Below are positions 33,205-56,700 of a stretch of 64,000 bases of DNA, piece by piece. Origin of the DNA: Branchiostoma lanceolatum (taxonomy: Eukaryota; Chordata; Leptocardii; Amphioxiformes; Branchiostomatidae); the NCBI RefSeq assembly GCF_035083965.1, contig NC_089738.1:15402734-15466733 (forward strand). The letters are read 5' to 3'. Within the stretch, counting starts at the first letter, position 1; every line of letters starts with the position of its first letter. The position numbers were made by a program, and so were the translations under genes. A model generated the notes under the pieces. It did no database searches. It saw nothing but the letters and a program-made list of their open reading frames with translations, and had not been told where the DNA came from.

Positions 33205-33743
33205 ATGCAGTGGGTGCGCGGTCTCTTATTGATCACTTTAGTGATCTGCTGCCTGGGACAGTACACCAAAGCGGCTCGGCAAAGCGTGGAACGCGAGACC
33301 ACGCCGGCTCGTCGAGCTAGCGCATCCCCAGCGGAAAAGAGCCGATATCCAAGGCCGTGTTGTCCGCCCCAACTGCCAGAGTTTTCATATTCATCACCGA
33401 CACGGCTTTCCCAACCACCGCTGCCGCCGAAAAGACTACCGCGGGCGACCAAATCATGGTTGTGGGGAAGTCGCCGCCGTCGCCGTCGCAAACCAGCGGC
33501 GCCTCCTCCGCCACCCCCACCGCCACCGCGACCACCACCCCGACCAGTGGCACCACCTCCGCCACCCCCGCCACCGCCGCCCCCACCCCCGCCACCGCCA
33601 CCCCCAAGAGCACCCTCCTCAACCGGCAGCAGCAGAAGGCGGCGTCGTCGCTCGCCGCCGAGGCACTGTGCGTGGGGAAACTGGAACACTTGGAGCTCCT
33701 GTTCGGCTACATGCGGGACCTCTGGGGCCCGGACAAGGACAAG
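33205..33743 (+). CDS. First exon P3: signal peptide, polyproline linker, half TSP1
   Basis: 179 codons. The leader MQWVRGLLLITLVICCLG is followed by a long basic and proline-rich linker with runs of 8 to 15 prolines (33504-33612) and Arg clusters (RRRRRKP, SRRRRRR). It then has the TSP1 start HCAWGNWNTWSSCSATCG. The donor AAG/gtcagc leaves phase 2, so the exon can join 42197 in frame. It is three times as long as its sister exons because of the linker, and its upstream sequence differs from theirs. It could be a diverged alternative first exon of gene B or the remnant of a separate gene. Confidence 0.65.
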
Positions 33744-33982
33744 GTCAGCTAGTTTGTTCTTGTTAGTTTATAGCTGTTTTCTGGTGTGCAATAACACTCC
33801 AAGCAGAGATAATGCTCCGGCTGGTTTTTGACGTCTTTTTAAGCGTTGTTGTCAGCTTTTTTTTGTCAGTCAGCCAGGGACAAAATGAAAAGTCGACAAA
33901 GTAAAACAAAAGCCGTCACAAACCAACCGGAAGCTAATCTCTGCTTGAAAAGTAGTATGGTATGCATTGTGCAGTTGTTCAT

Positions 33983-34198
33983 GGGGTCATGTTAGCCTCC
34001 GTTGCAGGCTCTGAAGCGACTTTTTCGGGGGCTAAATAATACACTTTCTGCGGCCACCCCGTAACTATCAGCCATCCTGTAACTATCAGCCGCTGATAGT
34101 TACAGGATGGCTGATAGTTACGGGGTGACGGCAAAAAGTGTATTATTTAGCCCCCCAAAAAGCCGCTTCAGAGCCTGCAACGGAGGCTGGGGTCATGT
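33983..34198. mobile_element. Foldback element with 10-bp target site duplication
   Basis: 33994-34188 is a single near-perfect inverted repeat (arms of about 97 bp) with almost no loop. Flanking copies of ggggtcatgt at 33983-33992 and 34189-34198 form a 10-bp direct repeat. Long TIRs with a 9-11-bp target duplication are the pattern of Mutator-type non-autonomous elements. The insertion is at the 5' edge of a tRNA-like repeat. Confidence 0.75.
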
Positions 34199-34320
34199 GG
34201 CGTAACGGCAGGGTCCAGAACCAAGCGGTCCTGGGTTCGAATCCCCTAACGCCACCGATGTTGTGCCCTTGGGAACTTTACACAACTTTCCTCACTCCAG
34301 GTGTAGAAATAGGTATATTG
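34199..34320 (+). repeat. tRNA-derived SINE fragment
   Basis: Begins with a tRNA-like segment: B-box-like 'ggttcgaatcc' at 34233-34243 and pairing ends gtggcgt ... acgccac. It continues into 'tgttgtgcccttgggaactttacacaactttcctcactccaggtgta', a tail recalled from widespread marine-invertebrate SINEs. The D arm is poor and the T stem imperfect, so a functional tRNA gene is unlikely. Confidence 0.6.
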
Positions 34321-35039
34321 TTCTCTGTATGTGGCACTGTTAAAATAAGTTTGAGTGCAGTGCAAAGTCCTTGTCTGTCCAAAGGCGAAGTAAAAAGAAA
34401 AGTTGTTCTTAGCGCCTGACAGTTCTTCTATGTGCGGACGGACAGAAATGAACCTCTTGAAGACAAATTGGTCGCACGTATTTTTGCACAAACAACAACA
34501 TGGGCACTATGATGCTGGGTTTAAGTAAAAACGTCATCTTTGCAGTAACGTTTAAGTGAAAACGTCATCTTCGCAGTAACACAAGTCTTATAAATCTTAC
34601 GCAGAAGTAGGCAAGTGATTTGTCAGTTATAGCTATATGTAGTACTTTGCTCTTTCAATAAGTTTCTGTAAATACACTAATGCATGAACTGGACAATAGC
34701 CAACTTCCTCCCAATGAACTAAAAACAAGCTGTCGGCAGATTGGATCTTTGTCAAAACATTGCGTGTTCTCGTGAGGTGTGTTACACTACTAATGATGAA
34801 TTGCTAGATTAGGTGTCCATGTACGACACACTGTTTACGTTGCTTTTCTTACGAGATCAAGTTGCACCGAGGCGTGCGCACTTTGCTGTACTTTCTTCAA
34901 TGCCATTGGCCAACGCCAATACAATAGGTTGGTACTGGCTACCATAGATGTGATGCCCCAAGAGTCTGAACAAATGCATGGTCTCATTGTTCTTCGCCTT
35001 TGTGCAAATGCGAACTCTAGTGTACTCGGGGTTAAAATC

Positions 35040-35220
35040 ACAGTACTTTGTACCAGGCAAGGGGTTCCAGGTAATCTGCGCGGGGGCATATAAATGCTGA
35101 CGCCTTGACAAGGAAGCGAGAAACAGAAAATGTCTGACTGAACGCAGGCTTGCTCCAAAGTGCTATAAAATTCGTTTGAGGAAAAAGGGACTTTCCTGTC
35201 ATAGATTCCCCATTGGTGGA
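35040..35220 (+). promoter_or_regulatory. Upstream block of first exon P4 with TATA box
   Basis: Holds TATAAA at 35089-35094, 'gacgccttgacaaggaa', 'gactgaacgcaggcttg' and 'gactttcctgtcat', which recur in the blocks before P5 and P6 in the same order. The TATA box is 132 bp before the ATG. Confidence 0.5.
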
Positions 35221-35408
35221 ATGATGTGGGGAAGATTTCTTCTCGTGTTCGCGCTACTTTTTCACCTTGTGCACGACTCACAAGCTTGGTTCAGCAGCGG
35301 TCGCCGCCGCCGCGCACCGCCACGACCAGTCCACTGCGCGTGGGTTTGGGGCGGCTGGTCCTCCTGCTCTGCACAGTGTGGGAACTCCGGTGTCATGACA
35401 AGATCAAG
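35221..35408 (+). CDS. First exon P4: signal peptide and first half of TSP1
   Basis: Starts with an ATGATG pair; leader MMWGRFLLVFALLFHLVHDSQA, linker with GRRRRAPP, then CAWVWGGWSSCSAQCGNSG. Donor AAG/gttaga leaves phase 2. No second TSP1 exon follows before 42197, so it either splices over more than 6.7 kb to gene B exon 2 or is orphaned. The signal cleavage site SQA is shared with P2, P6 and P7. Confidence 0.65.
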
Positions 35409-35579
35409 GTTAGATACACTGTGCTATAACAATGGGATATACCTTTACATGATATAGATTTGATGGCGATGACAAGAAAAAAAACGGCAATAAAAACAAC
35501 GTTTGGACCAAACAAAGGTTGTTTGTGCAGGGAAGTATGTTGTTTGAGTCTAGTTTTCACCAAAATGGTAACAACAAAA

Positions 35580-35839
35580 GCGCCTGAAGGTATACCTTAT
35601 ACAGGGTATTCAAGTACGGCGGGCTTAAAAACAATGGTGCTTTTTACAGAGAGGGGATTTCCAGGTAAAGTCCACGGGGGAGAATGTGTTGACGTCCCGA
35701 CAAGGAAATGAAAAATGCTTGACTGAATGCAGGCTTGAACCATAGTAGCAGATCCGTTGAGGGATAAAGTCGTTTAACTAAAGAGAGGACCTTCTTGTCA
35801 GAATTAGTGACAGATTTCTTGATAGTCTTAGTTACAAAG
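35580..35839 (+). promoter_or_regulatory. Upstream block of first exon P5
   Basis: 'atacagggtattcaagtacggcgggctt', 'gtgctttttacagagaggggatttccaggtaa', 'gttgacgtcccgacaaggaa' and 'cttgtcagaattagtgacagatttctt' line up with 40140-40380 before P6. The coding part and this block evidently duplicated together. Confidence 0.55.
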
Positions 35840-36033
35840 ATGCGGTGGGGAAGAGTTCTCATTGTGTTCGCTGTCGTGGTTGGCCTTGCCGATTCGCAAG
35901 CCAGCTTTCAGATTATGAACATGGGTTTTATCATTGGGTCGTCACAACCAGTGAACTGTGCCTGGGGAGTTTGGGGAAGCTGGTCCTCCTGCTCTACACA
36001 GTGTGGGAACTCCGGTGTCATGACAAGATCAAG
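35840..36033 (+). CDS. First exon P5: signal peptide and half TSP1, retroelement at its donor
   Basis: Leader MRWGRVLIVFAVVVGLADSQA, a non-basic linker (SFQIMNMGF), then CAWGVWGSWSSCSTQCGNSG, ending AGATCAAG/gtcaga in phase 2. In sister exons the bases after the donor are gttagat; here a LINE begins, and the expected intron sequence (gttagac ... ctataacaatgg) resumes at 39308. A GT is still present at the junction, but the rest of the donor is supplied by the LINE. Confidence 0.65.
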
Positions 36034-36047
36034 GTCAGAAGAATCAG

Positions 36048-37439
36048 AAGGGCATATTCTGTGACTTATGCGACAAGTGGTTTCATATATATTGCACGGG
36101 TATGGATACCCATGAATACTACACCCTAGCGAACTCAGATCAGTATTGGTATTGTAACCCCTGTTTGCTTCCTTGCTTTAGTGATTCATTTTTTGATTCT
36201 TCTAGCACTGAAAATAGTACTACTAGTAGCGTCTCTGATATTGTGAATGACGAAGAAATCTTGGAAAGTACTACTAAGATACCACCATCAAAGGGCCTAA
36301 CCATTGTACACCTCAATATCTGTAGTTTGTATAGCAAGTTGGACCAATTGCATGTATTTATGTCTTCCAACAATGTTGATGTTATGACGGTTAGTGAAAC
36401 CCACCTGGACAGTACGATCCTGGACTCAGAGCTACACATAGAGGGCTATCACCTGTACAGAAATGACAGAAACAGACACGGGGGTGGGGTAGCCATATAT
36501 GTGTCAGAGGCGTACAGCCATACAGAAGTACCTGAGCTAAAACAGCCTGGCCTGGAGGCAGTTTTCTGCACAGTAAACATACCTTTCACTAAACCCATCA
36601 CCATTGCTTCTGTGTACAGACCACCATCAAGCCCTGTAGAGTTTTTCTCCCTGTTGAGGGATGCTCTTGAGAAATGGAGTCTGACCATGTCAGACTCCGA
36701 ACTGTTTCTACTGGGCGACTTCAATGTTGACATTAACTCACACAGTAGTCCAGGTGCTAAGTCTCTAAAATACCTAAGCCGTGAGTTCCAACTACAGCAG
36801 GTGATAAATACACCAACTCGAGTAAACGAACATTCGAGTAGTCTGATTGACCATATCTACTGTAGTGACATACACCGAGTTAATGACTATGGTGTAGTTC
36901 ATTGTACGCTTTCTGATCACTACGCAGTGTATTGTATTAGAAAGGGTAAACGTCCAAACTCAGCCCCTAAGTATGTAACCTCACGCAAGTTTACAAAGTT
37001 CCAAGAAGAGGACTTTCTCACTGACCTCAGGGCTCTTGATTGGAGCTTGGTTTACCAGACTACCTGTGTAGAAGAAGCATGGTCAATATTTAAGTCCTAC
37101 TTTATTACCATTAGTGACATTCATGCTCCCTATATCTCCAAGCGCTCTAAAGCTATGCAGCCCCCATGGCTCTCAGCAGACATAAAGAAAATGATGTTTG
37201 AAAGGGACAATATGAAAGCTAGGGCTCGAATGACTGGGGACAGCACAGACTGGGAGGGTTACAGGGCCACACGGAACAAAGTAAACAGACGAGTTAAGCA
37301 GGCAAAGGCCAACTACTGCCAACACAAGCTGGAAAACTGCTCGTCAGAACCAAACCAAATATCCTACCCAGAAAGAGCTCTGTTATCACAAAGACTCTCA
37401 ACTGGGCAGGACAACATCTCTCAGATCCACTCAGCATAG
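36048..37439 (+). pseudogene. LINE ORF part 1: PHD-like motif and endonuclease
   Basis: The reading frame enters at about 36048 without a start codon; an ATG is at 36102. The endonuclease catalytic motifs are all visible (N-I-C-S, S-E-T, D-F-N-V-D, S-D-H). Such enzymes nick the target DNA for target-primed reverse transcription. After about 37340 the true frame shifts, and this frame ends at a stop at 37437. Confidence 0.75.
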
Positions 37440-38674
37440 CAAACTGTTTTAACAACTTCTTTGTTACAGTTGGCAGGAAACTTGCAGAGAGGTTCAAACA
37501 ACAGACACTGACCCTACAGTGCCCCACAGTATACAGACAGATCTCATCCACCTTTCAATTCAAACAGGTTAATGATCACTCTGTGTATAATAAACTCAGT
37601 ACATTGAGCAACAACAAGGCAACAGGTCTTGATCGTATTCATTCAAGACTGTTGAAAGCTGCAGCTCCATGTATCTGTAAACCTGTCGCTCACATATTTA
37701 ACATGTCCCTCTCCTCAGGTCACATTCCAAAAGAATGGAAAAGGGCCAGGGTTACACCTATACACAAAGGGGGGGATCAAGATGACCCAAACAACTACAG
37801 ACCCATTTCAGTGCTACCAGTAATTATGAAAGCATTTGAAAAGGAAGTACATGGGCAGTTCTTAGAATATCTGCATAAACACCAGATTCTTGCTACCCAA
37901 CAGTCAGGTTTTAGACCTGGACATTCTACAGCCACAACCCTTCTTGATGCCACAGACTACATGTTACACAACATATCTAATGGTAAACTTGTGGGAGCAG
38001 TCTTCTTAGATCTTAAAAAGGCATTCGACACTGTGGATCAGGATGTCTTACTACAGAAGCTGTCTTGGGTAGGTGTACAGGGGGTTGAGCTTCACTGGTT
38101 CACTGATTACTTAGCTGGAAGGGAACAAACTGTTAGTCTCAATGGATGTGAATCCGACTTCCTACCAGTTACATTAGGGGTACCCCAGGGCTCTATTCTG
38201 GGCCCCCTACTGTTCATTCTGTACATAAACGACTTACCTTCATCAGTCTCTACTGTATGTAAAGTATGTCTGTATGCAGATGATACTGCTATTTTCTGTT
38301 CCAGCAAGGACGCTAGAGTCATAGAGAACACCTTAAACTCCGAGCTAGCAAACCTTGCCACATGGCTACATTCAAATCGTCTAACACTGAATGTCGCTAA
38401 GACTAAGTGGATTCTATTCGGTAGTAGTGGGAAGCTAAGAGCAGTACCTCCACTTAGAATCCAGATTGATCAGGAAACAGTCGAACAAGTGTACCAATTC
38501 AAATACCTAGGTGTTCTCCTTGACTGCAATATCTCATGGAACGAACACATTGATATGGTATGTTCCAAAGTATCTCAGAGAAGGTTTGCTAAGACGCTTA
38601 AGATCATGTCTCACTGTCAACATTGCAAATATGTTATACAGAAGTATGATTCTACCACTACTGGAGTATTGTGA
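37380..38674 (+). pseudogene. LINE ORF part 2: reverse transcriptase
   Basis: The frame that reads SDPLSIANCFNNFFVTVG upstream of 37583 continues into a full RT domain with the catalytic YADD box near 38275. A one-base shift at about 38580 cuts it off: this frame ends at 38674, while the continuation GLLRRLRSCL lies in another frame. Confidence 0.8.
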
Positions 38675-39089
38675 CATTGTCTGGGAAAATTGTAACATCA
38701 CCAAGCAGCGACAACTTCAGGTCCTTCAAAATCGAGCTGCCAGGGTCATCCTACAAATGAAGCGACGATCCAGTGTCCAAGACCTACACAGCAGACTCAA
38801 CTGGAAGTATCTGACGCAGCGGAGAAAGGAACACATTTGTGTGATGGTCTTTAAATGTATTAACGGGCTTGTCCCAACATACCTGGATACCACCTTTGTA
38901 CACAACCACCTGTTACACAGCCACAACACCAGACAAGCCTCTTTGCTCCATAAACCCAATTACACAAACACAGCCGGCCACAGAGGAGCAACATATTACA
39001 ATACACTTTCGGCGGACATTAGACATGCACCAACTCTACGGCAGTTTAAAGCTGCCCTAGGACACACTCCTCCGCACATTGACCTCTGA
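38580..39089 (+). pseudogene. LINE ORF part 3: C-terminal RT-associated region
   Basis: Encodes LLRRLRSCLTVNIANMLYRS, PLLEYCDIVW, QNRAARVI and GATYYNTLSADIR, the conserved tail of CR1/L2-type ORF2 proteins. It is out of frame with the RT by one base. Confidence 0.8.
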
Positions 39090-39307
39090 CCTCCACCGTT
39101 GACGTTTTTGGTTGATCTCGACAACTGCTCTCTGTAATGACGCTTCGGTTTATTTGTATATATTGTTTGTTGTCCTCTGGTTGTCTCACTGAATGTAACA
39201 CGATTCGTTTTTGTTATTTATTTAGTGGGCCCCCTTGGAAATCAACTTCAAATAAGTTGAATGGGGCTACCCACTTGTCTGAAGATGAATAAATAAATAA
39301 ATAAATA

Positions 39308-40084
39308 AAGGTTAGACATATTTATCCTATAACAATGGAAATACTCTTACATGATGTAAGTTTGACGGTAACGACAAGACAGTAACAACAACAACAACAA
39401 CCAGAAACAACGTTTCGACCAAATAAAAGTTGTTTGTGTAGGGAACTAAATTTTGTGTAGGGAACCAAAACTTTGTTTACGCTTCAACTTAAGACTATGA
39501 ATTATGTATGTATGTATGTATGTGTAGGGAACTATTCTATTTAAATCTAGTTTATGCTAAAAAAAGGTGAGTAGATGTGATTCAGAACGTTGGGGCTTGC
39601 GTCAAACAGATTGAATCTGTCCATTATCTTTTAAAAGGTAAATATGCTAAACAGCTAGATTTCTGGTGGATACAATGCACAAAGATAGGGGTATCTACAT
39701 AACTAAAATGTACATTATTAGTCAATCAAAATTTTTATGACAACCACTGTTTCGATATCAATACTAGCTACGTTATTGAAATGTGATCAATACGATATTG
39801 CTGGAATGACTATGCACTTTTAGCTTGTGTTCAGATCTGAGATTTTGTTGACAACTCAGTTCTGATGAGCTGGGGGTGTAAACATGCCTGACTGAGTGTA
39901 TGATTTCTCGTAATTGTTCGCGATAGTTTATCATGAAAATCTACCCTGTTACACCGTGGGCGCATCTAGCGAGCTATTTCCCTCTTTGTGAAGGTCCCTT
40001 ACAATTTGCGCTGACAGAAAAGGCACCTGGTGCGCAACTCCCTGACAGCAAAGGTGGTGCGGTAACAGGTAAACATGAGCTCAA
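39308..40084. other. Resumed intron of first exon P5, then spacer
   Basis: 39308 onward ('gttagaca ... ctataacaatgg ... gatgtaagtttgacggtaacgacaag') aligns with the intron start of P4 (35409: 'gttagatac ... ctataacaatgg ... gatatagatttgatggcgatgacaag'). A short (tatg)n run is at 39506-39524. No exon seen. Confidence 0.6.
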
Positions 40085-40390
40085 TATGCCCCCGTCAGCT
40101 CAAGTGGTGTAACGTTACATATCAACAATAGTGCTTGACTGTATCTATACAGAGCATTCAAGTACGACAGGCTTGAAAACAATAGTGCTTTTTATAGCGA
40201 GGGGATTTCCAGGTACCGGTAAAGTGTGCAGGGGGGGGGGGACATGTTGACGTCCCGACAAGGAAGTAAAAATGATTGACTGAACGCGTACGCAGGCTTG
40301 AACCCTAGTAGCCCAGTGCGTTCGTGGTAGAAAGGACGTTCTTGTCAGAATTCGCGACAGATTTCTCGACAGTAATAGTTTGTTACAAAG
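40085..40390 (+). promoter_or_regulatory. Upstream block of first exon P6
   Basis: 'gtcagctcaagtggtgtaac' (as before P2), 'cagagcattcaagtacgacagg', 'gtgctttttatagcgagggg', 'gttgacgtcccgacaaggaag' and 'cttgtcagaattcgcgacag' occur in the order seen before P5. It also holds a run of ten G at about 40230-40240. Confidence 0.55.
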
Positions 40391-40563
40391 ATGCGATGGG
40401 GAAGATTTCTCCTTGTGGTCGCCATAGTGGTTTGCCTCTCCCAAGATTCGCAAGCCTGGCGTCGCCGCCGCACACCACCACCAGTCCACTGCGCGTGGGT
40501 TTGGGGCGGCTGGTCCTCCTGCTCTGCACAGTGTGGGAACTCAGGTGTCATGACAAGATCCAG
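40391..40563 (+). CDS. First exon P6: signal peptide and first half of TSP1
   Basis: Leader MRWGRFLLVVAIVVCLSQDSQA, linker WRRRRTPPP, then CAWVWGGWSSCSAQCGNSG. Donor CAG/gttaga, phase 2. From VHCAWVWGG on it matches P4 residue for residue. It lies 1.6 kb before the second exon at 42197, with P7 between them. Confidence 0.7.
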
Positions 40564-41424
40564 GTTAGATACACTACTGCGAAACAGAATTAACAGGGGA
40601 ATTTTGCAATGTGCATTGGATAATGACAATAAGAAAAATCGACTTTCAACCCGAAACGGCAATATTGCCATCAAAATGTTATGAAAATTCCAAAAAAGAG
40701 TGCTTAGAACTTTAAGCATTCTTTTGGAAATTTGTGACTTTCGTCATGCCTTACTGTTTGCATTCGAAAGATCTTTTATACTTTTTAATGATAAGTTGGC
40801 AGAAACCGTATCTCTATGTTATTAACTACCAGTCAAAGTTCCTCTTAACAAGATATAATGCAAACCTAAAACAACAGCTTATCGACGGAAAACAACGACA
40901 ACAAAGCAGAGTAGTTAACTAAGTCTAGTAACCGTTGCAAAACATACAAAACCACGAGCTTGTTATGACGGGGACAACGTGTGTCAACTTTCTTTCTGTC
41001 TTAAGTTTGGTGTTAAAACGCATTTAGCGTTCATGAGCACAGAAATTGAATAATGACTGTGGTGAACCTAAGGCTATTACGTGGTTAGATCCAATCACGA
41101 TCGCGAAGAGTTGCTTTAAAGTGTTCTGTATCAATCACCCCTTCTTCTACATGTAACATGGTAAGCGTAGGCTTAGAACTGTCTAATCTGAAAGGCTAAC
41201 TCTACGATCAGTGGAACGATGTGTTTCTACGCTTTAACAGCGTTATACTAGCCTGGTTGCCATCCTTTTAGCTTTATCCCGCTCTCTTGGTTGCTTCCTT
41301 GTCAGCCTTTTATATTTGCTCCACTCTTTAGGTATAAGTTGTTTTTTTGTACAGAGAGCCAAAAAGGCTGGTAACCAGACTAGTGTTGTACATGTACACC
41401 TGAGTGGCGACTCATGTGGTTTTG
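40564..41424. other. Intron/spacer after P6, containing a MITE-like element
   Basis: No exon seen. 41247-41384 has inverted ends: ctagcctggttgccatcctttt against aaaaaggctggtaaccagacta (imperfect, about 22 bp), enclosing about 95 bp. It is probably a short foldback or MITE. Confidence 0.45.
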
Positions 41425-41606
41425 TTGTACATAAAAGCTGGTGGTGTCACGTTACATACGTCACAAAAGGTTTCATTACGTAGCGACACAGTGGGGAACC
41501 CCGGCCCATATACCTGGTCATTAGTAAGGCCGGGGAATTCCAGGTGGACCTTTATTTGTCCATGACGAAGCTTGTTTACCCAATAGCAAAAGAAGACGAT
41601 ACTAAG
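41425..41606 (+). promoter_or_regulatory. Upstream block of first exon P7
   Basis: Only parts of the shared block remain recognisable: 'ggtggtgtcacgttacatac' near 41440 compares with 'agtggtgtaacgttacatat' before P6. No clear TATA box was found. Confidence 0.35.
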
Positions 41607-41788
41607 ATGTTGATCAGAAGATTTATCATTGAGTTTGCTGTCCTGGTTTTCCTTGCTAAAGATTCTCAAGCGTTCTTTAGCGTGAACATTCAACTGGTAC
41701 GATGGCCGGTCCACTGCGCTTGGGACTGGGGGTCTTGGTCCCCGTGTTCTACTCCTTGTGGGAACCCCGGTGTCATGACAAGATTCAG
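41607..41788 (+). CDS. First exon P7: signal peptide and first half of TSP1
   Basis: Leader [22 protein letters not shown]; the linker lacks the Arg run of the sisters and reads [12 protein letters not shown]; then [19 protein letters not shown]. Donor CAG/gttaga, phase 2. It is the first exon nearest to exon 2. The ATG at 41607 was chosen because it opens the conserved leader; an upstream in-frame ATG at 41562 would add 15 residues. Confidence 0.7.
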
Positions 41789-44700
41789 GTTAGATGCACT
41801 GTATCCGGGATCACAGGAGAGCCTGTATTAATTTGATGATAGTTATTTGAATGGCGACGACAAATTAAAAGGCTTTAGACCAGCAGCGGAATATTGTGTC
41901 TAGCTGTTGGTAATCTGCTTGAATCGAATTGTCTCCGAAATATTTCGTAGGTAGTGGTGGCTTCCGGTCAGTTTGAAACGATTTTTCATGCATTTCATGC
42001 AAAGCAAAGATCTTTCCTGTTTTACAAATGGGTTAATGTGCGCCACCACTTTTGGTTATGATGTCTTTGATCGGACATCTTCTTTGATTAGAAATGTGCG
42101 TTCTCTATAAAAACATTTTGGCTATATGACACCTACTTCACACGTGCAGGTGGCATAGGACATACGTTACCAACCTGATGCCGTTTTCACATGCAGGACT
42201 ATAACCCAGCATGCTGCTTACGGTGGGTCTGGGTGTAGCGGGCCCAGTAGCGAGACTCAGCCCTGTAACCGGTTCTGTCACAACGGCGGCACGCTGGCCG
42301 GGTCAGGCTGCTCCTGTCATCCTGGATACAGCGGGACATGCTGTGGTACAGGTACGTCCGGAGTCAATATATAGATATCAAATTACTTCTTTAGAATTGT
42401 TATATAGACCAGAAATAGTTCAATTGTCGTGTGTCTGCAAGTTGCCATACATTGTACCTGTTGCAATTGTCGCGCGATAAAGTTATTATTCAATAAAAGT
42501 CCAAATAAGGAAAGTGGCTAAGAGGCCCCAAAAGACGTATCCATGCACATTCTAGATATCTTCCATCCATAGTTATGCTGGCAAGAGTACGTCGACGCAG
42601 AGACAAATACATACACATAACAAAAAAGATACCTTCTTCACGGAGGTAATATATAGGCGTCTAGGTGTGTCAATCTTGATGCCACTTAAAATGGTAAGAG
42701 ATAGTTTAGGTTTGGGCCCATAGCAGCTTTTTTAAACAGTAAGGGCCTTCTCTGTTGGAGACTTTGGTTCTCTTGTGAGTACCTTATCATCAAGCTCATT
42801 CCACTGTTCAGAACTTGTAATGATGTCAGTTGTGTTTGCTATTTAGTCTAGCCAGTTCTAGATATACGTAACGTCTCAATTTTATAACTTCAGACGTAAA
42901 CGAGTGCTCCAGTGCTAACGGAGGATGTGACCACGACTGTGTGAACACGCAGGGAAGTTACCACTGTACCTGCCGGGCTGGGTATCTTCTCTCCGGGACA
43001 CACAACTGCATAGGTGAGGGCTGAATTGGGAATGTATGATTGCATTCAGTACCTGTATGCAAAATGACGCTGTGTAGCGTGTTTCTTTAATGTATAACTA
43101 GTATACTTCATTTTGTTCTCCGACGAGCCTGTCTGTCAAACGCATGCCATCTTCTAGACATTTCCTTAGTTGCTTAATATACAAATGGAATACATAACGT
43201 CACAATTTTAAAGAAAATACATACATGTGCATGTTGTTACATGTGTGCGTTCATCAGGACAAAGAAGATGATGAGGCATAATTACTACTACACTTTAGCA
43301 TTTGCAGTAAGGACAAGAAAAAAATCTGGTGTAACAATTCCAGTCTTAGACGAGAGGTAATACAGAAAATTTAACATGAAATCTTTTCTTTTGCTTAGAT
43401 TTGAACGAGTGTTCACACGACAATGGCGGCTGCCAGCATACCTGCGAGAACACACCGGGAGGTCACCGCTGTACTTGTCGGCCTGGATACCTTCTGTCTG
43501 GATCAACCAACTGTGCAGGTAAAACCTGAATGGTGACAACAAAGAGGTGGTGAAAGTTATATATCCATTTAGCCACTCACCTTCAAGAGCACAGAAAACA
43601 ATCTTAACGGTCAATTTGAAATCAATGTCTTTCTTATATTGGATTATATATTGGTTTTAAAATACTAACCTGACCCATCACAGGTTAATAAATAGTTACA
43701 TGTAATCATTTTGACAAGGTAAGGATTAGCCGAAGAGACAAAATTCCGAGAGCTAAGGGAGCTCGTAACATGCAAAACGCGGTGAACATGAAAAAAGGCT
43801 GATGGCAACTGATGTACATTTCAACAACTGCAGATACAGAACACAGTTGATGATGAGGATGATGAAAATTTATCTGACGTGATTCACTTCCCGTGCACCA
43901 CAGACATCAACGAATGTTCCACTGACAACGGCGGATGTGAGCACACCTGCGCCAACACTATTGGCAGTTTCCAGTGTTCCTGTCGGTCCGGGTACCAGCT
44001 TTCAGGAACCACGGACTGTGTTGGTAAGATCACGTTATCATTCTTTTTATGACTAAGATGGGAGTCTTGAGTACATGGTCATGATATTGAATAAAGATCT
44101 GCTTGATAGGATCATAAACAAAACATAACACAATATGGTTAAATATGAACATGCCATGTGTAAATCTCTGAATGTAACGTTGTATCTTGATTTAGATGAC
44201 TTTGACTGTTTTTGCCAGCAGTGTTTGGAAATTCAAAGGGAAATCGTTTGCCGAAGAAACATCATGAATCCTATCCATTACATATATTTGAACTGAAAAA
44301 GATCCAGAATATCCGACTCTCTGATCTTTCCCGATATATTACATCGTATATATACACCTGATAGTAACTTTGCATTGATATTTTCGGTCAACGTTCTAAT
44401 AGATGTCAACGAATGTTCAATTAACAATGGCGGCTGTGACCACGACTGTACCAACACGGACGGGAGTTACTACTGCAGCTGTAGGACTGGATACCAGCTT
44501 GATGGGTCTCACACGTGTCTTGGTAGATAGCTTTGATTTTAACAAATTTATTGCAATGATGAACTAAGAAATTAAAATGAAACCTTCTTTTGAAAGGGAT
44601 GCATTTTTCAATGATGGTGTGTTAATTTCTTTGTGGTCAGACATGTGAATGTCAACAACGTACCTTGTAGATTAAGTTTAAGAAGTTAAAGCCTATTCCA

Positions 44701-47700
44701 CATCATATGGTGGATATAATGGTGCCCGTCTCTGTTTCACTAGCCCTTGGGCCACACAACTGTGCAAGGACAGATGGTATTGACTGTCTACAGCAGGGCT
44801 AGTCAACAGGTGTTGAATTTCTTAAAGTACCAACTTTGTAATCGTACTGAAGTCACATGATTTGTAGTCACGACACTCCAATCGGTGTGCTATAATAACT
44901 TACGAGATAAAACTGTTTCCCTTTTTCCCATCAGATATAGACGAATGCTCCAGTGGTAATGGCGGCTGCCAACACACGTGTACAAACACAGACGGAGGGT
45001 TCGAATGTTCCTGCAACACCGGGTATCAGCTCTCTGGATCTCGGAACTGCATAGGTAAGGCGCATTGAAAACGTCTCACATTGTCCATTCCTATAGATCC
45101 TGTCATTTTGACGTCTAAATATAAAACTAGTGTTAACAGGTCTACCATCTTCAGACGACATTGACCAACATAGGCCAGTTTCACGATATCGCTGCCATTT
45201 TAAAAAATGGGCTTACATGTTTGTACGAAACCAAGGTTTCTTTGTGTGTTTGAAAGCAAGGACTTATTTCATAGACACATCAAACTTTGCTTCTTGTTGT
45301 TTGTTTTTCCAATGGAACATTGACCATTGCGTTGATTTAGACACGTCAGTCACAGTTATGTTCTATTTTATGCTCTTTGTATACGTTGTTTTGAATTTCA
45401 GACGTTGACGAGTGTTCCGACAACAATGGAGGCTGTGACCAGAACTGTGTGAACACCGTGGGGAGTTATCACTGTGCCTGTCGCCCGGCCTATCAGCTCT
45501 CAGGCTTCGGAGGGATGACCTGTATCGGTGAGCCGAGAATTCGAAGTTAAATGTGTTGATCGTCTTTTTGTTGAATGGAAACCAATATGTGCTATTAGAT
45601 CTAAAGGACCTGATATGAATTGACGACTTTGAGGAAAATGACCTGGTGATGAAAACTGTATATACACTGAACATATAAATCTGCGAACATACATTTTCTT
45701 TCGCGTTAACGTTATGCATTTACTTTGCAGAAAGAGAAAACAGTGGGTGTGTGAATGGTACATGGACCTCGCAAACCACCTGTACCTGCGACCCTGGTTA
45801 TACTGGATCCAGCTGCAATACGGGTATGTACTTTAGTATACCAATGTGGCATATAATGTACAGCTATTGCTCTCCTGAAGAAGACGGTGGTGATACACTT
45901 TAACGGAATGACGAGCTCAAGAGTCTTCTGTTTTTTCTTCTTCCTTCTAGATTTCATAATCTTTGTAACACAAACTCTCATTGTCTAAGCTAGTGCTCTA
46001 TGGGATTTTGCCCATCAGGTTACCAGATTCGGTATTCAGTGATGGTTTTGTATATCATTATTTCAGCTATCTGCAGCAGCGGCTGTGTTCATGGAACTTG
46101 CACGGCACCGGAACAATGCAGCTGCTACACTGGGTACGCCGGAACCAGCTGTGACACGGGTAAGGCTATTTGTGTGCTATTTACGTGCTAAATTGTTATG
46201 TGGAATGTAGATGTAGACGACGAAGCGTTTGACAAAGTATTACATATCAAATATTCCATTGATATTTCAGTATCTGCTCTGGTGCAACTGATCATATTTA
46301 CACTGTCTAGAGCATCGTTAAGAATAAGGTATCTTGCAAAGCAGTGACCCCTCTAGGATTTTTAACAAACTATACCTTTTGTTAATTCAGATATCGATGA
46401 GTGTTTGACAAATAACGCAGGCTGCCAGCACACCTGTGTGAACACGGCCGGTAGCTACTACTGCACCTGTCGGATCGGATACCTGCTCCCACAAGGACAC
46501 AATTGTGAAGGTAAACATATGCATTGATGAAGCGTTGGTCTGTATGATTAGCTCCAAATTGCAATGTGATCTTATTGTAACATCATTGTAGGCACTGGTG
46601 TTGCTATCTCTGCTTAACTGGAGCCAGTCAGTTAAACCCAGAAGCGCTTTCTACTGTCAATAGAATCTGACCTGGAAATTGCTCACCTTTCAACAGCCTT
46701 TTGCAGACACAGTGTTGCTGATTAGTACATCTGACGGGGTATGCTCACAACATAACATCTGTTTTCATATTGGCATTTCAGACATAAATGAGTGTTTGAT
46801 TGGAAACGGTGGCTGCCAACACAACTGTATCAACACAGAGGGGAGTTACAGCTGTACCTGCAGAACTGGGTATCAACAAGCCGAACAAAGCTGCTACGGT
46901 AAGCATGTGGCGATCATGCCTTCATCAGCATCTTAAAAGTATTTTCTTTTATCATCATACAATAGTTGATGAAATTTTGTTGACATTATCAATTATACAA
47001 CAGCCTACAAAAAGTAATTACTAATACAATGATGTTGACTTGGCAATGTTTGTTTTTTCAGACATCGATGAATGTTCTTCCAATAACGGCGGATGTCAGC
47101 AAGTATGTGAGAACACAGAGGGCAGTTTCTCCTGTTCCTGTAGGACCGGGTATCAGTTGGTGGGCACGAGTGACTGTACAGGTAACGGTACAATACAATA
47201 AGTCCTTAGAAGGTATGACAAATGAGTACGATAGTAATATTTCTTTCAGAAATGACTATTTCGCGGACAATTCTTTCAGGACGACATCCTTTGCTACAGG
47301 TAGAGAAGTATGGAATATTAGGAAGCAAAATGATAGGATAAGATGGATAAGATCTAGATGTTTCATGATCTGGTAAGATGATCAAAACTCTAGATGCATA
47401 TTGCAAAATATCCAGTTTATGAAGAGTAGATTAGTATTTCTTAAAGGTACTCGTCACACAAGTGCTTAAAGGTAAAGCATTGGGAGGTGCATTCTGAAAA
47501 AAATGAATAAGTAAATGAATTTGGAACGATTTTTGTCAGGTGCTAGTGCAAGCGTTCTCTCAGAGGATACACCCATTTTTAAAGTAAATAATGATTAAAC
47601 AGTTACTTTGTAGAGCAATATATCTCTATGGTTTAAGTTTCATGTAATGAGTATAACATGTGCATGCACGTAAGATGGTGATCAGACGGCGGTTATATAC

Positions 47701-50700
47701 CTCCTTTGTAGACATTGATGAATGCAGCAGTGACAATGGCGGCTGTGAGCACAACTGCGTAAACAGCGTTGGGAGTTACAGATGTACCTGTCGTCATGGT
47801 TATCAACTGTCTGGGACAACAAACTGCGTCGGTAAGAAACACACACAAAAGGAATTAACCTTCCATTATTATTACGTAAATGCAAATATATAGATCTGGC
47901 TCTTTTAGGTTCGACCAGTCAGTATACTGGCTGTAGCGTCACGTGCAAATATACTAGAGCGCATCATTACTGATCTACTGTTTTGTTACTTTTCAGATGT
48001 GAACGGATGTCTATCACTCCCGGACTGTCACTTCTGCACTAACACGGTGGGATCCTTCACTTGTTCGTGCAGGCGTGGCCACCATCTTGTGAATGGGAAC
48101 GACTGTAGAGGTATGTGGCCTTTGTATGGGTTTATGCTGACTCATTTTATAATTATTTCAAAGCACTTTTCCAAAATTGTCTCTTTACGTTGCCGTTGGC
48201 GGGTGTCATATGTTGCTTCGACCCGTAGGGACAATGGGTTGATGGAGCCAATCTCTCTCCTTCCGCTGCCTTTTATCTCCATAACCAAGTACCAGGTACC
48301 CAGTGGTGTACACCATTCAACGTCATACAAAATAGCGTATCAATATCTATGTGCCATATAGATGATGATCTGTACCCGTATGGAGGAAGTGGTGGGAAAA
48401 TCCATCAAGGGAAACACTGTGTGCGGGAGGAGCTACCGATAGAAGGATTGAGATTCTACAGTCGACGTCATCACTACATATACGTAAGACAATACCTCTA
48501 ATTCGTATCTGCTAAGTGAAAAGTGGTAAGATATGCTGTACTGTTGTTGCTACTATTCTTTTGAAGTTGATATCTTTACCCGTCTTCAGTTTGGTCTGAA
48601 GTAAAGGATCTTACAGCATTTCAGCTTCAGGAGAGTAAAGAGTCCGGTCATATTCGTCGAACGACAGGCTGACGTCAGAGAATGGAGTCAATGCATCGTA
48701 AAACATTTAACTGTATGGTTATGAAAAGGTTGTGGAAGATCTTTGGGCTTGCCAATGGCCGTTTTCGCTGAAAATCATACGACAAAAAAAGTCCTACGAC
48801 AAATATTACCATGCCTGAAGTAAATCGGCAGCAACCTACCCTGTCAAAGACTGTTCATTCCATTAGTTCCCTGTTTACCTTGACAGATATGCGACAACGG
48901 AATCGTGTCATTCGACTGGATCCCGCGTCCGCGGTTTCCCACAAAGCTGACAGAGGCCCACTGGAGCAGGAAGGCGGTGATAGCACCTTATCTGGCCCAG
49001 TCACATCCCTACATCATACCACATCTGCCAGAACAACGGAAGACGAAGATCTACTACCAGTTCCATAAAGTTGGAGACGGTGATGCAGTCTCAGCTGAGG
49101 TTCTTCGTCGGGCACGAGACCATGGAAGGTTTACGCCAGGATTCTATGCACCAGGTAAGTGGCCTTCTAGATTACAAAAAGAAAAAAAAAGATACCAGCC
49201 ACGCACGGTCAGAAGGAAACGTGATTGGCTGGTAAGTTCCCTTCTAAGAACAGGAGGGGGAGTACTAGTATCTGATTGGTTGACGGCTGGCCGCCGGTAA
49301 CGCAGGACGCCAAGACCGTTGCTTGATACCTGTGTTATCGTTACATCGATACATGTGTTATTGTTGTTGACATTGTCTTTTATCTACAACACACAATGCC
49401 GTCGTTTTCAACCTGTTTCTAACTGCATTCTTTGTTGATTTTTTTTCAGGCTACGAGCCAGTGTGGGTTCTTGTTGTGACGTGGACCAACATGTCCCCAG
49501 ACTGCAGTGTGTACCCAGGAGGACGATGTCCCGTCAATCATGCTACCCTACCGGTAAGTGCGCGTTGTTACGAGAGCATGTGTGCTTCCCATTTATTTCA
49601 AATTTACTTCATGCAAATACCATGCAAATATAACGTTTATACATTTCATTGCAAATGCAATCATAACATCAATTGATATTCCAACTTTTTACAGATCAAC
49701 GACTTTCAGCTGGTCATTTCCACTGATGGGACATACTCATTTGGGCACAACATCTATCCTACGATGAAGCTCGAATGGACCAGTGCGGGTGAGATCCAAA
49801 TAAACTATTTTGTTATATTTCTTATCTCAGCAATATCATTTCCTGGTTCTTTCTTTGTAGCCATTTTTCATGACATTTGATAAAACGATACATTATACTT
49901 TTCAGGTGAACTGAACGGAAATCCGAACCCTGCAGCCCATGCAGTCGGTGGCTTCAGCTCCGGCGAAGGCACTGCCGTAGACCTACGGTATTCTGGTAAA
50001 GCTAACATGAAACGGTGGAGATTCCATGCAGGTAATGACACGTTTGCGATAGCCAAATCCTATTCTGTTTTATCCTCGCGTCAATGGGTGCCTCCATATT
50101 GAGTCGAGACGTCATGGTTCGGCCATATGGAAACCTTCCAGCTTACCAATCTATACCAATCACAGAATCACAAGTCGTGCCGTCATAACAACGGCGTTCT
50201 CATGCGGGGCTCCCCATCAGTATTCACGATTTTTGAGCTTTTTTTGTCATCATTCTATCGAAATGTTAGAAGATCATATCAGCGGGCAATTGTGGTAAAC
50301 ATTCAATGGTACTAGACTTCGGACTGATAGCGCCTAATGTCTGATGTAGTACATTGACGAATATGCCCAGTGTGGCTGTAAACAGAGTTTGGAGCGATTT
50401 TGTATGTCAATTTTAGTTGCAGTAATAGCCGTGACCTAAAAATTAATTCGCTGTCCACCTAAAGGTCCCTGGAGCTACGCACTCCAACAGATGGGAGATT
50501 TCACAGTTCCACAGCAGTCGGCACTGCAGTGTGCGCAGTGGATCAAAGAACAGGACATTCCTGACCCGACTCGACTCTCAGGCTACTACCGTATCCCAGG
50601 TCCCCGGTCCTGTCCTTGTAATGCTGAGCAAGCCTTCTTCGACAGCACGTAAGTATCTCCAAGCAATACTGCTTAGTAGTGTCCCACCGGTAGAGATCAT

Positions 50701-53700
50701 GGTCTAGCCAGCCGCTAGGGAGATTTCAAGGCACGTTGAAGGAACTCACTAAAACCGGGTAAAGATTTGCACTGCGCCATTGGTCAGAGGAGTGTGTAGA
50801 CGAGGGGTGGTGATCACTGTTTTGAAATTTACAGATACAGCTTTTCTGTCCGTCGGACCGAGTCATGTGCCATAAGCCGCAGACGCGCCGTGGTGTACTA
50901 CGGGGGGCGCAGGCACGAGTTCCGCCGAACCTGCTGCTACACCGCCTCCTGGTTCTGGATAGAGAGGTGGTGGTGGTGGCGTTGGCGAAGGAGGGTCGCT
51001 GGAGGAAGTCTCATGCGGGGACACGATGGTGGTCACCTCATAATTGTACGTACAAGCATTCTGATGATTGTTCATGTATTGTTACTATCGCTACTTAGTC
51101 TTTGGAAAGTAGAGTTAGGCACTAATATATTTATCTCTCATACCACAATCGACATTTTCTTTTTCCTCTTCGGGTGCTGCTTAACCAATGCTTTGCTACC
51201 GGTGATTATCAGAACGTCACATTAAAAACAAACACAACAGACATATGGCGTTGATAATGCAAATGGGAAGACGTAGCAGAACCTTTGTGCATAGAGGTGT
51301 ATGAAAAAGCACTTTGTGGATATCAGAGCAAATGTTATGTTCTATTTTACGACAGGATGATCTTGGGACCGACAACAGCGCCCGTCAGAAATGCTGTGTG
51401 GAATCCGCGGGCGCTAGAATGGGATGGTACTGCCGAAAGTTCGGGCAACTCCGTCCGTTTTCCGTTCCAGATAACTCGAGGAGTCCCTGTTCCAGCTATC
51501 CTATTCACATAGGTAAATTATCTATCTTTTATAGTCTATGAAAATATAGATACTTGAACTTGAAAGTTAATCTGTGTTGGTAGAGGTCATCCTGAAATTT
51601 TGGGTTAGTCTACTTTTTGTGTTGGCAATTACAGTTAAACTTTGATTCAGAATAGATATTTGAAGTTTGCTAGGTTTGAACATGTCACGTCATTCTCCTT
51701 TTCTGTGTAATACAAGGTTGGACGGTGGTGCGAAGCGATCCACACATCATGACGCTGGACGGGAGGCAGTACACATTCAACGGACTTGGGGAATACGTCC
51801 TGGGAGACTTCGGAAGGGGAGAATACCAAATACAAGGACGGACGTCATTCGTGAAAGGTAGGAACATCTTGATTTCTAGCCATTACCTCATGACACATTG
51901 ATACTGCTAGGACTTCCGATAACAGGTACAGGTTTGAAATGAAGCTCCTGGCACTTTTGACCAATTGCTGACTTCACATGCTCGGTAGATTACGTCTTTG
52001 TTAGGTCACGTGTTCGTTAGGTCACGATTAGTCGTTCGTACTTGAAGAATGCTATATCATCGACATCTATTGTATTTTGAACATATTGTAGCTACCGACA
52101 ATGCTGTTAGCCAATAAAGATGAAATTTCAGACTAATAATTTGAAATGATTTCTCCTCACCGATATAGGAAGTAAACTTGCCACAGTGTTCACCGGTATC
52201 GTGACCGCCGAGCGCAACCGCGTACCGATTCAGATCAACCTGGTGGGAACGTCAGGTTTGCAGCTTCACATCAACGGAAGTGACGTCAACATGGCGGCCT
52301 TCAACGACAGCGAGTTCGAACTGGAAGTGGATGACAGCGCTGTAGTCAGCAGTCCTGAAGAAAACACGCTTCTCGTCGTCTTCTTCAACGGGATTACGGC
52401 AAAAATCAACGCAGCAAAGGTACTGTAACTACGACAGCTGCTTATCTTGCCATTGATTGTTTAGAATTAGCTTCACTTCAACTGTTTATATAGGCTTATA
52501 TCCTTCGCGTACGTAATGAACAACAACTTTAATGATGTTACTACATATCAAGAAAATGTATCAAAGTATCGCCATAGGCATGTGCATGCTTTTATCAGTA
52601 CGTACTCCATTTGACATTTATTGATTGTGACCTTGGATCGAATAATATTTTGATACTTTGAGTAACTGATAACAATTTTGTTTTAACACATCGGATTTTA
52701 TTTGTTCCTCTGATCATCGTCCACGAGATATCTACCACACTAAATCTAACATGTCTTGTTAACATGTTCTAAACATACTGGACCCTCTTAGAAATACATT
52801 TTTACAAGATTAGATGAAATAAATTGATGAGAAATAAAGTAGTGTAAATACAAACATACGACTGAGCCCTTGTATTCCTCCATAGGCGATGTTGTTCGTG
52901 GAGTTCTCAGCGCCGCCTGAGTACATGAACAGAACGCAAGGTCTGCTGGGAAGATGGGACGGTGACAAGACAAATGACTTCGAGGCCTTTGATGGAACGA
53001 CGCTTTCTGCCAACTCTTCGGAGAGACAGCTTTATGAGATTTTCGGACAGTCATGTAGGTGTTAAATACGATGTGATAATGTTACAAGCAAATAAAGCAG
53101 TTAAGTTAAAATCATTTCCACATCGATGATGTACAAAGCGGCGCCCATTTCTGTTTCTCATAGATCACACTAGATATAGTATTATAGTAAGTAGTATATT
53201 CTTATACATGTATAGAACTAGATTGTTACCTATGTTGTCTGTAATTTGCCATACATTGTCACTGATGCAATTGTTGTGCAATAAATCATTCATTCATTCA
53301 TTCATATAGCACTAGAGCAGCGGGCAAACGCTCAGCAGCAGGGGGCTAGCCCACTGGTAGTGTTGTATGTTCAACTACTATAGTCTTTACGTCAGCTGGG
53401 TGTTAAGCAGAGAATTAAAGCAGCATATTTAAACCCTATGTATGGTCATCGGGTATAAATGAATCTACCTTGCAGTTCAGAAATCTTATGACTGATTTTA
53501 TTCATGTATCATTAATTATCCATAGGGCAAGTGACAGGAGAAGAAGGACCCAAAAAGTCGCTTTTCTACTACGCTCCCGGAGAAGGTCCTGGAAACTTCA
53601 CCCAGGCGTCATACGAGCCCGCCTTCACGGACGAGATCGTGTTTGCCAGTGCTGAACTGGAGCAGCAGGTCCTTCATTTTGTTTATTTCATTTATGCTAT

Positions 53701-56700
53701 AATCGTAGTTACCTGTGTGGCCAACATATATAAGCTTTTGGCACGGTGGCCAAATTTATGCTTAGAAACTCCCATGTCCAGCCGAATTCGAACGCTGTTC
53801 CACGATGTTCGAAATGACGTAATTCGATCCGAATGCTTGTTCGATTTGGGGTCACCTACAGTCCAAGGTAACTCGACACTTTGTCGAACGCGCGTAGCAA
53901 CGGGAGAAAGAATACCCCAGCGACGGACCACCGTGCGGCCACTCTTGCACATTTGTATTATGATTTTATCACTGTTGTCACTTGTATCTTTGATATGTGC
54001 TAAATGAATAATCACTGAATCAATCAAGGCCCGGGCTGTGTGCGGAGAGGACAAGACGTGTCTGTTCGACATCAGCCATACCGGCGACGTGCAGGTCGGG
54101 GAGGTGTCGCTGGCGGCGCTGCAGACTTTCGAAGACGAGGTATCGGGGAGAGGTAAGGGTGATCTGATGTCAAAACGTATATTGTTATCTGTAGTGGATT
54201 CATTAGTAATTTCTAACACAATTTTCGAAAATGAAAGCCAAATTTAAAACTAAACATCACCAGTCAAGGAATGAGCAAGTTACCGCTGCTATGACGTCGC
54301 TGTATGCAAAATTTACAGTTGGTAAACAATGGATCAAAATCTACAGAAAGTTTGTAGCGTCCCCCGTCTCTGTCAAGGGTATATGTCTTTCCGATGGACA
54401 ACCTCTATTGAATGACAGAAATACAGCATCTTTTGTTGGTCAGTTCTGCTTGTCGACCACGTAGATGATGAGCCGTCTTTCAACGTGTCACTCTCAAAGC
54501 TTTACAATCCTATGATATCTCCCAATGCAGAAAGTTTTCCACCGCTGATATCCGGGCCCGGCGCTGTGTACCTGTCAGCTGGAGAGACGATAGAGATAGA
54601 GCTGAACGCCACGGACCCGCAGGATCTCCCGGTCACGTTTGAGATGGGACCTGACGTTCCACCAGAGGTCGTCCTGGTTACCAATGGCAACTACGCAAAG
54701 GTGACGTGGAACGTCACGGACAACACGATGTTTAATCTTCAGGTGATTATTCATTTAATGACAATTTTGCGACATCTTCCTTATGCTTCTGCAGCTGATT
54801 TCTTTTTAAACATTTCGTCTGAAAGCAACGTTATAGTTAAGCAGAATAAACTTATCCTCTTCCAAAGTTTCTGACTAAAACCTCCTGCAATTCCGAAACA
54901 AACTGCAAGGGAATCCAACCTTACACCATTCCTTCCCGGCCCAAAAGCTATCCAGCACAAACCGAATCATTACTATATGTAGCATGTCCAGAAAAGTAGA
55001 TACAAAAACAGATGTTTCGCTGCAGTACCAGGGCAAGTAGCTAAGAGGCCTAAAATGACGAGCACCTTCAGTATCACAGCACCTACCCCACTACACTGTG
55101 ACAAGCCAAATATCGCAACAATCTAAACGCAGCAACTGCAAGGAAAGAAAAAGACATGTTCAAATACACACAGTCAGTGAAAAGAGGTAATGATTGTGTG
55201 ACTATGCACTAACAGGTGACGGCGATAAATTCCCGGAACAGCTCTACCGAGTACCGGCCTGTCCTGTACCTGTGCTCCTGTAGGAATGGCGGCCGCTGCA
55301 ACGCCAGCAACGATCTGGAACCGTCGCTTGTGGGGTATGATGAAAGGTGAGACAATTTTGCCTTTATTTATTGGGAGAGCAATCAAAGCAAGTATCCAAG
55401 CCTGCAACTGTCTGTGTTTTATCAAGGACCTTGGTTTTATGTAAACAGACATAATCATTTGAAGAATCAGCTTGGTGATTGATACTTACCTATGACACCT
55501 AGAAGTGGCACATTGGGTCGGTGTGACAGGGGCTGGTGCGCCGGAGATCTCCACGTTTCTTGACCTTTCTTGGGGGCCGAGATCACTGATTGAGAGACGA
55601 AATCGAACAGACACCGGCCGTTTCCCGCCAGTATGAGTAATGGTTCCGCAGTTCCACTGATGTCCTTGAAGTCAGGGACAACACGCTGCCTAATTATTCA
55701 AACCCAGGCAGTAGAGAACAGAATATAGCCTTACCCAGTCATGATGTATCAGTAAAATTGTCTTTTCTGACAGGTTTGTCATCCAGAAATGTGTGTGCGA
55801 GGAGGGGTACACAGGGGAGCAGTGCGAAAGTGACATTGACGCATGCGCGGAGAACTTTGACCCATGTTTCCCAGGAGTCCCCTGTACGGATCTCCCGCCA
55901 CCTGCCGGCATGGAGGACGGCTTCACGTGCGGAGACTGCCCTCCGGGGTACGAAGGCAACGGAACGACTTGCCAAGGTAAGAAGTATCTGTATCTATATA
56001 GCCGATACGACCGCCCTTCGATACGATAGCCTTTAATTTAGAAACCAAGCCGACGTCTTACAGCATGGTCGTGGTGACTATTGGAGAGTGTCTTTCACTT
56101 GGCATTATAGTTTTTACCCAAGACCAAGTTCAACTTTAGAGGTTGAAGAAACCCTCTTGTGTGACCACGGCTAAGTTAAGTATGTTGGCCAGCTGTTCTT
56201 CGTACGGTCTGTGATTGAATGGGCTTGTCTACATCTTCGGCTCTACTAGCTCCAAAAAAAAACTTTCGTATAAAAGTTCGTGCTAGATTATATGATAAGT
56301 ACACAATGCAGCTAACGTGAAATTCAAATGTATTACAATGATTACTCTACCTACTACAAACTGAACTAATGTCTAACAATTGTGAACTTTCTTCCCAGAC
56401 ATTGATGAGTGTGAGTTGGAAGAGGCAACGTTGTGCCAACAGATGTGTGTAAACTACGTGGGTAACTTTACCTGCGACTGCCACGAAGGGTATAAGCTAG
56501 CCGAAGACGGACGCTCGTGTGCAGGTAAAACAAATCATTTCAATAGTTTATCTGTAATTGAGTTTTGATTACCTTAATCGCTATTAACTTATTTATTCTG
56601 AAGTCTTGATTTCTGTTGCCTGGAATCTATACTATCTAGCTCAAAATAGGCCTCTCCTTTGATCGCTTCCCTGCCAGCCCACTTTTGAAGTGTGCCAGAC

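Follow-up and report, generated by a model that had tools for sequence, protein, structure and literature searches.

Why would a single gene be preceded by a row of short, similar exons, each of which begins with a start codon and a leader and breaks off in the middle of a protein domain? This question is raised by a 64,000-nucleotide stretch of the genome of the lancelet Branchiostoma lanceolatum (contig NC_089738.1, positions 15,402,734 to 15,466,733; hereafter, the window, numbered from its first letter), where five such exons, denoted P3 to P7, precede the long remainder of a gene that we call gene B. This arrangement exists in the DNA and displays, at that level, the characteristics of a multiple-variable-first-exon gene. 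Exon anatomy, reading frame, a single acceptor, completion of a domain across the junction, purifying constraint and clustered NF-kB-type motifs all come from the sequence, and the interpretation that we favor on these grounds is that gene B probably is a lancelet gene of this class, in which the first exons have promoters of their own and several of them are used, yielding a family of membrane proteins of about 2,000 residues.

Each of the exons P3 to P7 opens with a start codon and a leader that resembles a signal peptide, continues through a linker into the first half of a TSP1 repeat, and ends in phase 2 at a GT donor. All five had been predicted in the first-pass annotation of this DNA, and all were located, on the plus strand, with a frame that is open from the ATG to the GT and lengths of 539, 188, 194, 173 and 182 nt, in each case 2 modulo 3. 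In P3 (33205..33743), the leader and the TSP1 half are separated by a 131-residue linker rich in proline and arginine, and the donor is AAG/GTCAGC. The linkers of P4 (35221..35408; donor AAG/GTTAGA) and P6 (40391..40563; donor CAG/GTTAGA) contain an RRRR run, whereas P5 (35840..36033; donor AAG/GTCAGA) has a neutral linker and P7 (41607..41788; donor CAG/GTTAGA) a non-basic one. A sixth intact exon with the same organization, P2 (10110..10300, plus strand), is homologous to these and belongs to gene A, the neighboring tandem paralogue; all six intact exons, 173-539 nt long, are 2 modulo 3 and keep the frame. Judged by eye, each leader finishes with a DSQA-type site, or with YTKA in the case of P3. 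With a matrix made from the 38 other donors of gene B, the donors of P2 to P7 score 5.6-8.1, within the range of true donors (1.5-12.9).

A tblastn search of the window with the five peptides (E≤0.05) recovers P3 to P7 themselves together with P1 (8934) and P2 (10110/10113) of gene A, and just two further matches, at 3953 and 49277, with E values of 0.01-0.03. Between different intact exons, the E values are about 1e-7 to 1e-29; at the sequence level, chance is excluded as the source of the likeness among the first exons. The linkers are, as anticipated, the most variable part, with nucleotide identity of 26-64% compared to 62-84% in the leader and 71-98% in the TSP1 half (P3 stands outside this alignment). 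The further proposal that the linkers were selected for diversity is not supported, the linker counts being too small and too poorly aligned to reveal positive selection.

Downstream of the five exons lies the constant exon 2 (42197..42351, plus strand), which encodes the second TSP1 half and an EGF domain, enters in phase 2 and leaves in phase 1. Its acceptor scores 11.2, a value attained by 0.4% of the AGs in the window (this acceptor is itself among the 39 used for the matrix). When the window was compared with itself by BLAST (E≤1e-8, over 60 bp), the only relative of exon 2 was found in gene A (10886-11079, 76% identity), and no copy of exon 2 was detected between the first exons (33.7-42.1 kb), in agreement with the earlier suggestion that a single exon with the second TSP1 half could serve all five. 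EGF copies are likewise absent from the intervals that separate the first exons, which argues against the explanation that these exons are pieces of separate gene copies, or alleles left uncollapsed in the assembly. Gene fragments do occur nearby, as the broken EGF exon at 31088-31204 attests, but most copies, P3 and P7 above all, are far more diverged than expected of alleles, and P4 and P6 are near-identical in the TSP1 half only; we consider this explanation highly improbable.

The constant part appears to encode a complete membrane-type protein. Any of P3 to P7 followed by the 39 constant exons gives one uninterrupted frame of 1,968-2,090 residues in 40 exons, ending at 60338; the splice sites were picked manually, partly guided by the database protein P0001. 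Exons 3-15 (42894..48110, plus strand) are thirteen phase 1-1 EGF-type exons, and exons 16-40 (48362..60338, plus strand) encode a NIDO domain, further extracellular stretches, which, reading by eye, we take to be AMOP-like and VWD-like, more EGF domains, an apparent transmembrane segment (about 59759-59839, also judged by eye), a cytoplasmic tail and the stop. In the P6 form, the predicted protein is 95% identical (1,871/1,968 residues), end to end, to P0001, a 1,973-residue B. lanceolatum protein named 'SCUBE1'; exon 2 and the first of the EGF exons, at 88% each, are more diverged from P0001 than most later exons, and several exons near the C terminus are equally diverged (84-89%). Among the best 120 of 5,087 matches (7,956 candidates scored; two further comparisons gave 12 and 31), the next end-to-end relative is P0002 ('isoform X2' from B. 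floridae x B. belcheri, 86%), and these two proteins, both of which are database gene models, are the only end-to-end relatives among the matches listed. A Pfam scan, which covered a 1,163-residue N-terminal model, found only EGF-type families and NIDO, with no glucuronosyltransferase domain. The SCUBE family is defined by the CUB domain, and its members are secreted; because Pfam finds no CUB domain in either the model or P0001, the name 'SCUBE1' looks automatic.

The junction between the first exons and exon 2 cuts through one small domain. When the P3, P5, P6 and P7 halves were each joined to exon 2, and the P2 half to exon 2 of gene A, the Pfam TSP_1 family matched at 42-47 bits, against a cut-off of 21.6. 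The first halves alone reach 18-24 bits, with two of the four just over the cut-off, and exon 2 alone has no TSP1 match in Pfam. The TSP1 half of P4 equals that of P6 in protein sequence. TSP_1 is unreported in the whole 1,163-residue model (E≤0.1) and in P0001 (E≤1); we judge the isolated module to be the fairer test. Since the variable exon ends within the domain, each isoform must finish the TSP1 fold with the constant half.

Both end-to-end relatives enter exon 2 at the predicted junction. P0001 starts with a P6-like exon, matching P6 in 52 of 62 aligned columns, P4 in 50 of 63 and P2 in 44 of 63, and P6 is, of the six intact exons, the nearest to this start. P0002 starts with a basic-type variant of its own that scores best against P2 (220.5), followed by P6 (210.0). 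With five intact, frame-keeping variable exons, one constant part encoding a complete membrane-type protein and a database protein that carries such an exon at the junction, the resemblance to the UGT1A and protocadherin layouts that the first-pass annotation had pointed out stands. The same starts are, however, what one would see if a single, P6-like first exon alone were in use and the other intact copies were tandem duplicates headed for decay: both are of the basic type, nearest P6 and P2/P6, respectively. Decay does occur, as P1 of gene A shows, and a retroelement has landed directly behind P5.

The pattern of substitutions speaks to this alternative. The six intact exons form 15 pairs, and in the TSP1 half, the ratio of the proportions of protein-changing and silent differences (pN/pS) ranges from 0 to 0.48 across all of them. 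A one-sided Fisher test gives p<0.05 for 12 pairs; the other three are P2-P5 (0.118), P4-P5 (0.082) and P4-P6 (0.053). Each of P3 to P7 reaches p<0.01 in one pair or more, although the 15 tests are not independent because the pairs share branches. The leaders are mixed, with pN/pS of 0.8-1.2 in three of 10 pairs (P2-P5, P2-P7 and P5-P7; P3 left out). Judging from these comparisons, the TSP1 halves are under purifying constraint, which argues that the other exons are more than relics. P3, P5 and P7 have diverged from P6 but retain the frame, the donor and the TSP1 residues, and between P7 and P2 about 68% of the silent sites have changed compared to 14% of the protein-changing sites. The use of one exon alone thus appears rather unlikely to us.

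The net charge of the linker divides the intact exons, with +4 in P2, +25 in P3, +5 in P4 and +4 in P6, as opposed to 0 in P5 and +1 in P7. The basic run is present also in P0001, P0002 and three other database proteins (P0148, P0149 and P0159), and because it is common to all of these, P5 and P7 are the departures. The latter three are lancelet proteins with a similar leader, a tryptophan and an RRRR run, and TSP1, followed by quite different bodies; together, they perhaps form a wider family with a common tip.

The upstream regions bear on how the array arose. It had been proposed that P4 to P7, along with P1 and P2, carry related upstream blocks. This holds for P1, P2, P5 and P6, which are related by BLAST (52-81% identity), and probably for P4 (50-64%, by alignment rather than BLAST), but not for P7 (36-41%). 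In the alignment, P5 and P6 are 81% identical; P4, P2 and P1 match these two at 61-64%, 59-63% and 59%, respectively, P1 and P2 match each other at 52%, and P4 matches P1 and P2 at 50%. The region upstream of P3 shows no relation to the others by BLAST. From this upstream likeness, the array apparently grew by duplication of blocks that comprise the promoter side and the exon. P4 and P6 (35318-35414 and 40481-40575) are 98% alike in the TSP1 half compared to 68% in the leader, which suggests that local gene conversion between first exons exchanged the 3' part of these two.

The same regions contain candidate control sites. The NF-kB-type consensus motif GGGRNWYYCC has 15 matches on both strands of the window, compared to 4.4 expected, and none of 100 shuffles attains 15. 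These fall at 13 separate places, six of which are in the 350-nt intervals preceding the seven first exons (those of P1, P4, P5, P6 and, twice, P7), where 0.5 are expected; this number was attained by none of 2,000 column-shuffled motifs and none of 20,000 random interval sets, and with the homologous P5 and P6 sites counted once, the binomial p is 5e-5. On the plus strand, the site GGGACTTTCC (35187..35196) is located 34 nt before the P4 ATG; GGGGATTTCC occurs 187 nt before the P5 ATG (35653..35662) and again, in a homologous position, 190 nt before that of P6 (40201..40210); and two sites within 41493..41541 (41493-41502 and 41532-41541) precede the ATG of P7 by 114 and 75 nt, respectively. 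P2 has a site at -400. In an RNA-seq study of B. belcheri treated with poly(I:C), a gene named SCUBE1 (141980F) is reported among the top up-regulated, with a log2 ratio of 12.05 (PMC5752451); this gene, possibly the relative of gene B, serves only as a lead.

Under the interpretation that gene B is a multiple-variable-first-exon gene, each of P3 to P7 would be transcribed from its own upstream promoter, and the 5' exon of the transcript would be spliced to exon 2, with the intervening variable exons skipped. The products would be type I membrane proteins of about 2,000 residues that share an EGF/NIDO/EGF ectodomain, a transmembrane segment and a tail, the differences among them lying in the Trp/Cys half of a single TSP1 domain and in the N-terminal linker. 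P3, P4 and P6 would yield a tip with an RRRR-type basic stretch, and P5 and P7 a neutral tip. The likely role would be the selection, by cell type or stimulus, of the tip of an epithelial receptor, the choice being between a tip that binds polyanions or glycosaminoglycans, or is trimmed by proteases, and a neutral one. Separate promoters and the use of more than one exon, as well as ligand, tissue and purpose, are what we infer. A more specific version, in which NF-kB-responsive alternative promoters choose the tip of a lancelet epithelial or immune receptor, such that infection switches basic and neutral TSP1 tips on one stalk, is speculative and, on balance, doubtful; if true, an invertebrate chordate would have a non-rearranging means of varying the recognition end of a receptor, one domain of which would straddle the boundary between variable and constant parts.

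Several observations weigh against the use of multiple, separately promoted first exons. No P3-, P5- or P7-like start was found in seven proteins (P0001, P0002, P0033, P0127, P0148, P0149 and P0159), although isoforms that differ in the tip only may be hidden because the database is clustered at 90%. Pairwise constraint would also be compatible with one exon having lost its function recently. Apart from a common 13-base motif, the upstream region of P7 resembles all the others at about the level of unrelated sequence. P3 has no exact NF-kB-type site within 350 nt, only one with a single mismatch at 33047, and because the motif was chosen after one copy had been seen, its clustering makes NF-kB-type control a strong lead, no proof. 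TATA-like boxes precede P1, P3 and P4 only, that is, three of the seven regions compared to a random mean of 1.6 (P=0.2). Finally, acceptor-like sites scoring at least 9 are found 150-300 nt upstream in four of the seven regions (P2, P3, P6 and P7, at -185, -281, -238 and -252, with scores of 9.2-12.0), somewhat above chance (random mean 1.6, P=0.051), and short 5' leader exons are accordingly possible for some.

These acceptor-like sites also speak for another alternative, in which a common non-coding leader exon precedes all five, and these are internal, mutually exclusive exons among which splicing, and not promoters, selects. Weak acceptor-like sites (scores of 4.2-5.9) are found no more than 40 nt from the ATGs of P1, P3, P4 and P5, but such scores are met by 5-11% of the AGs in the window, compared to 0.4% for the score of the exon 2 acceptor; sites scoring at least 7 are present within 150 nt of none of the seven ATGs; and P1, P4 and P5 lack a strong site within 300 nt. 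Together with the NF-kB-type sites shortly upstream of P1, P4, P5, P6 and P7, this makes a shared leader improbable. We retain the multiple-variable-first-exon interpretation as the probable one.

Gene A (8934-30085) provides a comparison within the window. Six stretches at 23.2-26.2 kb match gene B at 73-97% identity, which is where its EGF exons lie; the gene has one live first exon (P2), one dead one (P1) and a separate exon 2 (at 10923). In P1 (8934..9083, plus strand), the frame is lost in the linker, and the later part of the TSP1 half and the donor are missing. Near 26.9 kb, a stretch with weak HYR likeness (E 0.0077) is below the cut-off, the whole frame being without a family at E 0.001; this stretch and a frame of Ser/Thr-rich repeats (28376-30085) may belong to gene A. 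Between exon 2 and the EGF exons of this gene, there is a Helitron-type frame on the minus strand (15456-20339; Helitron_like_N and PIF1 helicase) with an internal 54-bp tandem repeat. The isolated EGF exon at 31088-31204, between genes A and B, is 92% like the gene B exon at 44935 and is a relic because its donor is destroyed. Within the array, an inverted repeat (33994-34188, arms about 94% identical) in the intron behind P3 is possibly a small mobile element. The retroelement behind P5 is of the long interspersed nuclear element type (approximately 36039..39311, plus strand), with PHD, endonuclease and reverse transcriptase domains, and is not part of the gene; it sits in the intron about 6 nt past the P5 donor, which is left intact, and sequence resembling the P4 intron continues past it (35403-35537 matches 39305-39448).

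Similar arrangements are known in other gene families. In the vertebrate UGT1 (UGT1A) cluster, tandem variable first exons with a signal peptide and an N-terminal part are joined to a constant set that carries the transmembrane part, and gene conversion shapes the protocadherins (PMC1885805). Gene B likewise combines tandem leader-coding variable first exons with one constant set that includes a transmembrane part, and P1 of gene A suggests a similar birth and death of variable exons. Unlike UGT1A, the protein is unrelated, the variable exon ends inside one small domain, the constant part has 39 exons rather than 4, and gene B is known from DNA. In the protocadherin alpha and gamma clusters, the 5' exon from one promoter is spliced to common constant exons, and the intervening ones are skipped (PMC3338513). 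Gene B matches this layout and also encodes a cell-surface protein, and P4 and P6 may show local conversion too. In protocadherins, almost all of the ectodomain comes from the variable exon and the tail from the constant part, whereas nearly the whole ectodomain of gene B is constant, and its variable exons contain no cadherin ectodomain but a TSP1 half. CTCF sites are found at the variable promoters of clustered protocadherins; by contrast, a scan with a CTCF core consensus gave four matches (≤1 mismatch) in the window and none from 3.8 to 54.6 kb, around the array. With NIDO and EGF domains, gene B resembles proteins named mucin-like, and it shares the start, a leader, a tryptophan with an RRRR run and TSP1, with its paralogues P0148 and P0159. 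It differs from mucin-like NIDO proteins, presumably including MUC4, and from the lancelet 'SCUBE1', 'mucin-like' and 'FBN2' proteins, in having one TSP1 at the tip, and from the SCUBE family in the lack of CUB, in the model and P0001, and the transmembrane end seen by eye.

What is unusual in gene B is the lancelet host, the split TSP1, the contrast between basic and neutral tips and the clustered NF-kB-type sites. No description of this array was found in the titles and abstract openings of the listed literature on amphioxus first exons, SCUBE and AMOP/NIDO, and the available text of a paper on amphioxus domain shuffling (PMC2575513) has nothing on TSP1 or first exons. Gene B also lends itself to direct testing: the system is small and comprises five exons, a single acceptor, one domain split in two and candidate control by NF-kB. 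Ugt1, Gcnt2 and Ugt2a share a variable-first-exon layout that has been described as vertebrate-specific (PMC1885805); a comparable array in a lancelet cell-surface gene would show the same mechanism of generating variety in an invertebrate chordate and in an unrelated gene.

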